From positions 1 to 64,000 of the forward strand of contig NZ_QEIO01000017.1 of NCBI RefSeq assembly GCF_003336425.1: a stretch of 64,000 nucleotides of DNA, given 5' to 3'. This DNA comes from Marinitenerispora sediminis. GTDB taxonomy: Bacteria; Actinomycetota; Actinomycetes; Streptosporangiales; Streptosporangiaceae. Shown one piece after another: positions 51,145 to 57,508 of the stretch. How positions within the stretch are numbered: the stretch's first letter is position 1; every line of letters starts with the position of its first letter. The position numbers were made by a program, and so were the translations under genes. The notes below the pieces were generated by a model that ran no database searches, was not told the DNA's origin, and saw only the letters and a program-made list of their open reading frames with translations.

Positions 51145-51900
51145 ATGCGACGACTCCCTTCCGCGCCCGCCGTCCGCCGCCGCGCCCTCCCCGTCCGCCG
51201 GGGGGCGGCCGCCGGACTTGCCGCCTGGCGCCGCCTCGCCGCCGCCACCGGGCTGGCCGAGCTGGTGGACCTGGCCATGGGCGAGCGGTGCGCGGCCTGC
51301 CACCGTCCGGGCGGCCCGGTGTGCGCCGCGTGCGCCGACCTGCTGGACCGGCGGCCGCGGCCCTGCCGGCCGCGTCCCGGCTGCCCGCCGGCGTGGGCCG
51401 GCGGACCGCACGCGGGGCGCGACCGCGCGGTGCTCATCGCCTACAAGGAGCACGGCCGGCGGGCGCTCGCGGGCCCGCTGGGCCGACGGCTGGCCCGGGT
51501 GGCCGCCGCGGGCGGCCACGCCGTGCCGGGCACCGTTTTCGTGCCGGTTCCGGCAAGCCCCACCGCGCTGCGCCGGCGCGGCGGGGATCCGCTGCGGCTC
51601 CTCGTGTCGGTGATGGCCGCGGAGCTCGCCGGGCGCGGCTCGCCGCCGCCGGTGGTGCCGGCCCTGCGCCACGTCCGCCCGGTGGCCGACCAGTCCCGCC
51701 TCGGCGCCGCGTCGCGCCGGGCCAACCTGGCCGGCGCCCTCGCGGTGCGTCCCGGCGCCGCTGCGCTGCTGGCCGGGCGGCGGGTGGTCATCGTCGACGA
51801 CGTCCTCACCACGGGCGCGACCCTGGCCGAGGCGGCCCGCGCGCTGCGCGGGAGCGGGGTCCGGCCGCGGGGAGCGGTGCTGCTCGCGGAGCGCGGGTGA
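51145..51900 (+). CDS. ComF-family phosphoribosyltransferase-like protein
   Basis: 251 residues. The N-terminal Cys pairs CAACHRPGGPVCAAC (near residues 51-65) form a zinc ribbon. The phosphoribosyltransferase loop VVIVDDVLTTGATLAEAARA is at about residues 213-232. In transformable bacteria ComF assists DNA uptake; in actinobacteria its role is not settled. ATG 51145 follows a GC-rich leader without a clear ribosome-binding site. A hairpin (51922-51949) follows the gene. Confidence 0.9.
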   Translation: MRRLPSAPAVRRRALPVRRGAAAGLAAWRRLAAATGLAELVDLAMGERCAACHRPGGPVCAACADLLDRRPRPCRPRPGCPPAWAGGPHAGRDRAVLIAYKEHGRRALAGPLGRRLARVAAAGGHAVPGTVFVPVPASPTALRRRGGDPLRLLVSVMAAELAGRGSPPPVVPALRHVRPVADQSRLGAASRRANLAGALAVRPGAAALLAGRRVVIVDDVLTTGATLAEAARALRGSGVRPRGAVLLAERG

Positions 51901-51921
51901 GCGCGCGGACGGGCGGGAGGT

Positions 51922-51949
51922 GCTCCCGGCCCGCGCGGAGCCGGGGAGC
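51922..51949 (+). terminator. Probable hairpin terminator after comF
   Basis: GCTCCCGGC (51922-51930) pairs with GCCGGGGAGC (51940-51949), one bulged G, nine-base loop. No U-tract, though the sequence after it is less GC-rich. Confidence 0.45.
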
Positions 51950-52046
51950 GTCAAGAAGCCTTTACCTGGTGCCCGGTTTGCGGCGTTTGGCGTGGTTTGC
52001 GGGTGCCGTGCGATGCCCCATCGGCCGGGTCCGTCGAAATTGCCAC

Positions 52047-52075
52047 CTGACATCTGGTGAATCTCGGGCTAGCGT
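52047..52075 (+). promoter_or_regulatory. Promoter of the leader RNA
   Basis: CTGACA (52047-52052), 17 bases, TAGCGT (52070-52075). Spacing is ideal and predicts a start near 52081-52083, just at the base of the long-range stem described for the RNA. Confidence 0.6.
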
Positions 52076-52080
52076 TCCAG

Positions 52081-52393
52081 ACATGGCACCCGTCCGGGTC
52101 CGTGGTTGCGTCGGGCACGACGCCGTCCGCAGGGCGGCGTCCGTTCGGCAAGCCGATGCCAGCCGCAGGCGAAACGGCCCACGTAAGGCGACTTTTCGTC
52201 GACCGATCACGGTGCGGCTTAGAGGTAAGTCCTGCCTCGCCGGAGGTCCCGATGTCCTCCGGAACCGGGAGAAGGGCAGTAGTGGCGCTCAAGCGCCGCG
52301 AACTCCTCAGCAGGCGGATGTGGGGACGAAGACCAGGTCGGCCGGACGGGTGACATGCCTCTCTTCACATGCCCGGGGCAGCGGCCCCGGGCA
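52081..52393 (+). ncRNA. Structured leader RNA upstream of hpf, probable raiA-type RNA
   Basis: GGCA-CCCGTCCGG (52085-52097) can pair with CCGGACGGG (52342-52350) and TGCC (52356-52359), closing a domain of about 275 bases. Inside are GACGCCG/CGGCGTC, CCGGAGG/CCTCCGG and GGCGC/GCGCC stems. A perfect ten-bp hairpin (52370-52393) ends it. It has its own promoter, lies upstream of the hpf/raiA gene, and contains no credible protein. The raiA RNA motif is a known large structured RNA in this position in Firmicutes and Actinobacteria; assigning this RNA to it is inference from place, size and architecture. Confidence 0.6.
52370..52393 (+). terminator. Hairpin ending the leader RNA
   Basis: TGCCCGGGGC (52370-52379) and GCCCCGGGCA (52384-52393) form a perfect ten-bp stem with an AGCG loop, followed by TTCCCC. 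It lies about 350 bases before the hpf start, so it may end a separate RNA or attenuate hpf. Confidence 0.6.
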
Positions 52394-52741
52394 TTCCCCG
52401 AGCCGCGCGCGGCGCGCCCGGTCCAGGGCCGGTGAGCAGATCGGCGGCCGGACCGGCCGGCCGCCGAGCGCCGGGTCCGCGCTGAGAAACGCGGGCCGCG
52501 TGATCAAAGCCGTACGTGAGTACCGGAGTCCCGTGGGTATACCTACGGCTCCCAGGCAGTGGCCGCCGAACCCTCCGGGCACCGAAGGCGTTCGGACACA
52601 CCCTGGCACTGGCTGTCGCCATCGGTGACGGCGGAGAGGAGGACGGCCACCTACGCCCTCCGCACGGGCCGCGAGGGCAACGTCACAACACGGAGCCGGC
52701 GTGCCGCCGCAGCGCGGCAGCCAGGCGACGAAGGGGGTCAA
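52394..52741. other. Spacer between leader RNA and hpf
   Basis: No gene supported. CCGTGGGTATACCTACGG (52531-52548) is an imperfect palindrome containing GGGTAT, the -10 of SigB-type stress sigma factors, but no correctly spaced -35 was found. AAGGGGG at 52729-52735 is the ribosome-binding site of hpf. Confidence 0.35.
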
Positions 52742-53431
52742 GTGGACATCATCGTCAAGGGTCGACGCACCGCAGTCAGCGAGAAGTTCCGACAGCACGT
52801 CGCGACCAAGCTGACCAAGCTCGCGAAATGGGAGCACAAGGGCATGAGCGTCGATGTGGAGGTGTCCAAGGAACGCAACCCGAAACTCGCCGACCAGCGC
52901 GAGCGGGTTGAACTCACGATCCACTCCAGCGGCCCCGTGATCCGGGGCGAGGCGTCCGCCGACGACCGCTACACCGCACTGGACCTCGCCATGACCCGGG
53001 TCGAGGCCCGGCTGCGCAAGCTCGCGGACCGCCGCAAGGTGCACAAAGGCAGCAACCGCGCCCCCGTCTCGGTCGCGGCCGCGACCGCCGAACTGGCCGG
53101 CGCGGCCCCGCAGCCGGTCCCCACCGCGGTGCCGACCGAGCCCGCGCCCGAACCCGCGCGCGCACCGGCGCCCGCTCCGCGCCGGCCGGCCCGGGCCGCC
53201 GACGCCGCGCCGGACGAGGAGTTGATCGAGCTCGACACCCAGGGCGAGGTCCCGGTAATCGTCCGCGAGAAATTCCACTACGCCAAACCCATGACCATTG
53301 ACCAGGCGCTGATGGAAATGGAACTCGTCGGGCACGATTTCTACCTGTTCCGGGACGAGGAGCGCGACGCCCCCAGCGTCGTCTACCGCCGCAAGGGCTT
53401 CAACTACGGGGTTCTGCGCCTGATGGAATAA
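52742..53431 (+). CDS. hpf: Ribosome hibernation promoting factor, long form
   Basis: 229 residues. Residues 1-105 are the ribosome-binding domain (MDIIVKGRRTAVSEKF-like start, KLTKLAKWEHKGMSVDVEV, DDRYTALDLAMTRVEARLRK). A Pro/Ala linker (about 118-158) leads to the dimerization domain (PVIVREKFHYAKPMTIDQAL, VGHDFYLFRDEER, VVYRRKGFNYGVLRL). Long-form HPF dimerizes 70S ribosomes into inactive 100S particles in stationary phase or hypoxia. GTG 52742 with AAGGGGG upstream gives the natural N-terminus. Confidence 0.95.
   Translation: MDIIVKGRRTAVSEKFRQHVATKLTKLAKWEHKGMSVDVEVSKERNPKLADQRERVELTIHSSGPVIRGEASADDRYTALDLAMTRVEARLRKLADRRKVHKGSNRAPVSVAAATAELAGAAPQPVPTAVPTEPAPEPARAPAPAPRRPARAADAAPDEELIELDTQGEVPVIVREKFHYAKPMTIDQALMEMELVGHDFYLFRDEERDAPSVVYRRKGFNYGVLRLME

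Positions 53432-54631: not shown

Positions 54632-57508
<2,877 letters not shown>

Follow-up and report, generated by a model that had tools for sequence, protein, structure and literature searches.

The RNA encoded in front of the hibernation-promoting factor gene, hpf, in the 64-kb stretch of DNA that we analyzed (the window) is a confirmed complete member of the known raiA/ModT family. Taken alone, the copy is an ordinary one for its order, and the useful part of this work is the set of comparative results obtained around it. The explanation that best accounts for these results, and one that we consider likely, is that raiA/ModT is a structured RNA made during growth and acting in trans; most relatives would transcribe it together with hpf, whereas in the window's clade the two would be largely uncoupled.

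A cmscan search of the 64-kb window against Rfam matched RF03072 (raiA) to positions 52089 to 52350 (+) with 147.9 bits (gathering score, 101.3) and an E value of 9.9e-37 over the window, covering the whole model (1 to 209). This was the sole Rfam match above the cut-off in the window, and the source genome has one copy of raiA. Upstream is a comF-like phosphoribosyltransferase gene (51145 to 51900, +; PF00156), which matches the TIGR00201 comF subfamily with an E value of 3e-10, yet under its curated cut-off. Downstream, hpf (52742 to 53431, +; GTG start at 52742) encodes a long-form hibernation-promoting factor of 229 amino acids (PF02482, PF16321, and TIGR00741) and is followed by its conserved neighbor secA (54632 to 57508, +; Pfam SecA domains), giving the gene order comF-like, raiA, hpf, secA. 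According to a review, raiA RNAs often lie 5' of the raiA/hpf gene and frequently 3' of comFC (PMC11477304), and the comF-raiA-hpf arrangement of the window reproduces this published context. A preliminary description of this DNA, made from the sequence alone, had proposed a probable raiA RNA in front of hpf and a search with the Rfam raiA model as a check; from the significant match, the long-form HPF, and the comF-like neighbor, we conclude that this identification was correct.

To score covariation, we used an alignment of 43 relatives and compared it to shuffles and slid controls. The P1 stem, in which the 5' strand at 52089 to 52107 (+) pairs with the 3' strand at 52331 to 52350 (+) in the Rfam alignment, was paired in 99.7% of cells, with double-sided (compensatory) changes in 7 of 14 pairs. 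The long-range 9-bp stem of the preliminary description (52089 to 52097 with 52342 to 52350), for which a covariation check had been suggested, is Rfam P1, and six of its nine pairs show double-sided changes. That description had also added 4 bp to this stem, and these CAUG/CAUG pairs (52082 to 52085 with 52354 to 52357) are present in the window's minimum free energy (MFE) structure. However, the two outer pairs form in only 18 and 6 of the 43 relatives, with no compensatory change, and we rejected the 4 bp as a conserved extension of P1. The internal stems it had seen are real according to the Rfam alignment. Between the P1 strands are a variable extra hairpin (52110 to 52152, +), which is an insertion relative to the Rfam consensus and differs in length among relatives, and a GCC/GGC stem (52158 to 52170, +) identified from sequence and Rfam pairing, which we call P3-like by analogy to PMC11751092. 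The loop of this stem, AGCCGCA (52161 to 52167), is the 5' half of the pairing pk1, and TGCGGCT (52213 to 52219, +) is its 3' half; the pairing is formed in all 43 relatives, with a compensatory C-G to G-C change at one pair. In cryo-EM structures, raiA/ModT is a monomer whose intricate fold includes two pseudoknots (PMC11751092 and PMC12286853), and we infer the pseudoknotted topology of the 7-bp pk1 in the window from the first of these structures. Over the whole raiA structure, 15 pairs had double changes compared to 7.1 in shuffles, and 73 double-changed cells were found compared to 25, with all slid controls far worse, while the single strand from 52081 to 52393 folds better than 100 of 100 shuffles (z = -3.79). 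These data leave almost no probability for the stretch encoding a protein or being a chance GC-rich fold. A 98-amino-acid open reading frame (ORF) does run open across 52057 to 52353 (+), but it has no Pfam match and begins inside the promoter, and changes among the relatives preserve the stems, with indels falling in loops; the covariance match (E = 9.9e-37) together with the covariation excludes both possibilities.

The window RNA shares with RF03072 the full model, P1, the pk1-type pairing, and the conserved core, as well as a primary-sigma type promoter, the comF-raiA-hpf context, and one copy per genome. It is GC-rich and, at 262 nt, is longer than the 209-nt consensus because it has the extra variable hairpin (∼40 nt) and because an internal hairpin is longer; it also differs in its 391-nt gap to hpf and in the probable presence of a separate promoter for hpf. 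Such variation is a matter of degree within the family. The raiA-hairpin RNA (RF03059) is likewise a structured element 5' of hpf in actinomycetes, but it is a 48-nt single hairpin unrelated to raiA, and it had no match at E values up to 1 in positions 51900 to 52800 of the window.

The promoter in front of raiA (52047 to 52075, +) consists of a -35 element, CTGACA (52047 to 52052), a 17-nt spacer, and a -10 element, TAGCGT (52070 to 52075), with transcription expected to start at about 52081. Since the 43 relatives were found by the covariance model, with the promoter not used, conservation of these hexamers is a non-circular test. All 12 hexamer positions are identical in 30 of the 43 relatives and at least 11 of 12 in 33, while the best score among 2,150 shuffled upstream segments was 10 of 12; the promoter previously proposed at these positions is thus well conserved. 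The same promoter and raiA start recur in named genomes of Actinomadura, Nonomuraea, Streptosporangium, Herbidospora, Nocardiopsis, and Streptomonospora, among others. Its elements suggest a promoter of the primary-sigma type.

In 135 distinct loci, we measured how far the hpf start codon lies from the 3' end of raiA. The gap is shorter than 60 nt in 59 of these, 60 to 100 nt in 28 (mostly Actinomadura), 100 to 160 nt in 27 (mostly Nonomuraea), and 195 to 472 nt in the remaining 21. In most relatives, raiA lies 31 to 160 nt before hpf, and in these short-gap relatives the two are probably cotranscribed. The window belongs to a clade of 16 loci (with named records from Nocardiopsis and Streptomonospora) in which the gap is 257 to 472 nt (391 nt in the window). 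Within this gap, the element GGGTATAC is invariant in 16 of 16 loci, 137 to 207 nt before hpf, where 0.036 would be expected; in the window it is at 52535 to 52542 (+). It is probably the -10 element of a second promoter that belongs to hpf itself. GGGTAT is one of the -10 elements of the stress sigma B/F group, and we consider the GGGTATAC promoter a probable stress-type promoter of this group. In addition, a hairpin just 5' of the hpf ribosome-binding site (52703 to 52721, +) covaries in the window's clade: 99% of its cells are paired among the 16 relatives, with changes on both sides in three of six pairs. This hairpin, for which there was no Rfam match in the window, is a probable second structured leader of hpf.

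At the other end of the gap, a perfect 10-bp GC hairpin, TGCCCGGGGC-AGCG-GCCCCGGGCA (52370 to 52393, +; identified from sequence and MFE folding), is a candidate for the RNA 3' end. The preliminary description had called it a perfect terminal hairpin, and the hairpin is exactly as described, but it lacks a U-tract, an intrinsic-terminator search gave no call for it, and not all relatives of the window's clade have a comparable hairpin. We rejected the idea that raiA is generally followed by a terminator, as the median z value of the best local hairpin was -0.07 for gaps shorter than 60 nt and -0.5 for long gaps. Gaps of 60 to 100 nt (mostly Actinomadura) contain a strong hairpin (median z, -3.2). 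In Actinomadura loci with a gap of ∼88 nt (L084, L136, and others), it fills the short stretch that separates raiA from the hpf ribosome-binding site and could be an attenuator or the raiA 3' end.

The distribution of raiA shows that it and hpf can each be absent where the other persists. Of the 37 genomes in the window's family, 35 have raiA, and the two exceptions (83 to 88% complete) also have no detectable hpf; because hpf is missing too and the assemblies are incomplete, this is probably an assembly gap. Across the phylum, 98 of 298 sampled Actinomycetota species contain raiA. Genus g56 of family f20, whose SsgA-rich genomes measure 6 to 10 Mb and which, from this size and the SsgA copy number, is probably Streptomyces, has no raiA match; three of its members that were tested (L196, L197, and L202) have the raiA-hairpin RNA before hpf in its place. 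Two raiA-less genomes of family f3, in the window's order, have the exact promoter hexamers before hpf, with 17- and 18-nt spacers. Two others (L200 and L229, family f21) have an hpf leader that retains the -10 element and the start region CATGGCACCC, with a shrunken stem-loop replacing the raiA core, and one (L228, family f26) retains the 5' part of raiA, including CGGGTCCGTGGTTGCGCCG. When eleven raiA-less genomes, including these, were searched again at a permissive limit, nothing scored above the cut-off. By sequence comparison, raiA appears to have been lost with the promoter kept in several lineages, and three of these genomes carry raiA remnants. The reverse is found in genus g43, a genus of small genomes, two of which (93% and 100% complete) contain raiA, at 164.7 and 165.9 bits, and have no PF02482 or PF16321 match anywhere. 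The gene order there is comF, raiA, secA, with secA 63 to 72 nt after raiA; the raiA core is intact, and P1 pairs CUCGCUCGG with CCGGGCGAG. This genus seems to have lost hpf from the comF-secA interval and yet retained raiA, a conclusion that rests on one genus and two genomes.

These observations predict the following mechanism. A growth-phase promoter of the primary-sigma type at 52047 to 52075 would start transcription near 52081, and the transcript would adopt the raiA fold, with a core closed by P1 and a P3-loop pseudoknot. In the window's clade, the 3' end of raiA is probably the hairpin at 52370 to 52393 or a site close to it, and the RNA would accumulate on its own in stable form and act in trans, while hpf would be expressed mainly from its own GGGTATAC promoter (52535) and partly by read-through. 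In most relatives, raiA lies directly before the hpf ribosome-binding site, so that one promoter would serve both, and, with a shared promoter in these short-gap loci, release of the RNA would have to depend on processing or termination. Action in trans has been shown only in clostridia, where C. difficile raiA/ModT is abundant, SigA driven, and able to complement in trans (PMC11706538), and is proposed for actinomycetes by analogy.

Several features of the locus could instead be read as a cis-acting, riboswitch-like leader, whose fold would sense a ligand or the state of the ribosome and set hpf expression. In the window's order, raiA is always directly 5' of hpf, often 31 to 59 nt from its start codon, the two have a common promoter, and the Rfam type for raiA is "Cis-reg; riboswitch"; the tight and nearly universal linkage in this order would also fit a role in cis. 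We nevertheless regard this reading as unlikely. Among 71 short-gap loci, the hpf start region showed 6.14 nt of complementarity to raiA, compared to 6.17 nt in shuffled sequences. There was thus no excess over chance, which speaks against an anti-ribosome-binding-site platform, and hairpins are present in some gaps only; the lack of a visible cis platform favors a trans-acting RNA. In addition, 257 to 472 nt and a conserved promoter-like element intervene between raiA and hpf in the window's clade, the clostridial RNA complements in trans (PMC11706538), and g43 has an intact raiA with no HPF in the genome. The g43 genomes and the promoter-only lineages are natural experiments, which together argue that raiA is not simply an hpf switch: a promoter kept without raiA and a raiA kept without hpf both disfavor a function solely as a cis switch of hpf. 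An old shared promoter, with the RNA and hpf each lost without the other, suggests that the RNA has a role beyond regulation of hpf.

A reading in which both functions coexist, with a released RNA that has its own function in trans and with processing or attenuation at the 3' end of raiA coupling its production to hpf expression, draws on the shared promoter, the short, terminator-free gaps of most relatives, and the strong hairpin in the 60- to 100-nt gaps. The hairpins in the gap vary between clades, however, and we consider this combination unlikely. Within the preferred reading of a trans-acting RNA made during growth, a tentative history is possible, if short of probable, in which Actinomycetota raiA is a module inserted in an old hpf transcription unit. 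Such a module would use the hpf promoter and be released from the 5' leader to perform its own function in trans; it could be deleted to leave a bare promoter or be kept when hpf is deleted, and the window's clade would have separated the two again by adding the GGGTATAC promoter and the covarying hairpin for hpf.

The preliminary description had called the function of raiA still unclear. This holds for its molecular function but is partly outdated, as cryo-EM structures (PMC11751092 and PMC12286853) and knock-out phenotypes have been published, with deletion affecting the growth transition and sporulation (PMC11706538). raiA/ModT is among the most conserved bacterial RNAs of unknown molecular function; the published experiments that we found are in clostridia, and the window provides a clean actinomycete copy. 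A link between raiA and SsgA-associated sporulation across the phylum was rejected: SsgA is present in 21 and raiA in 98 of the 298 Actinomycetota species, and both occur only in the window's genome, as raw counts in which sampling and shared ancestry are uncorrected. With an overlap of one genome, the clostridial role in sporulation is unlikely to be general in actinomycetes.

We also observed an inverted repeat, TCAC-N5-GTGA, whose position 5' of the raiA promoter is constant, ∼69 to 71 nt before the raiA start motif (L004, L014, L018, and about 60 other loci). The repeat was absent from the corresponding place in the window and from all 28 loci of the 60- to 100-nt class (mostly Actinomadura). 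It is present in 62 of the 88 loci with gaps shorter than 60 nt or of 100 to 250 nt, as well as in two long-gap loci, and is a candidate regulator site.
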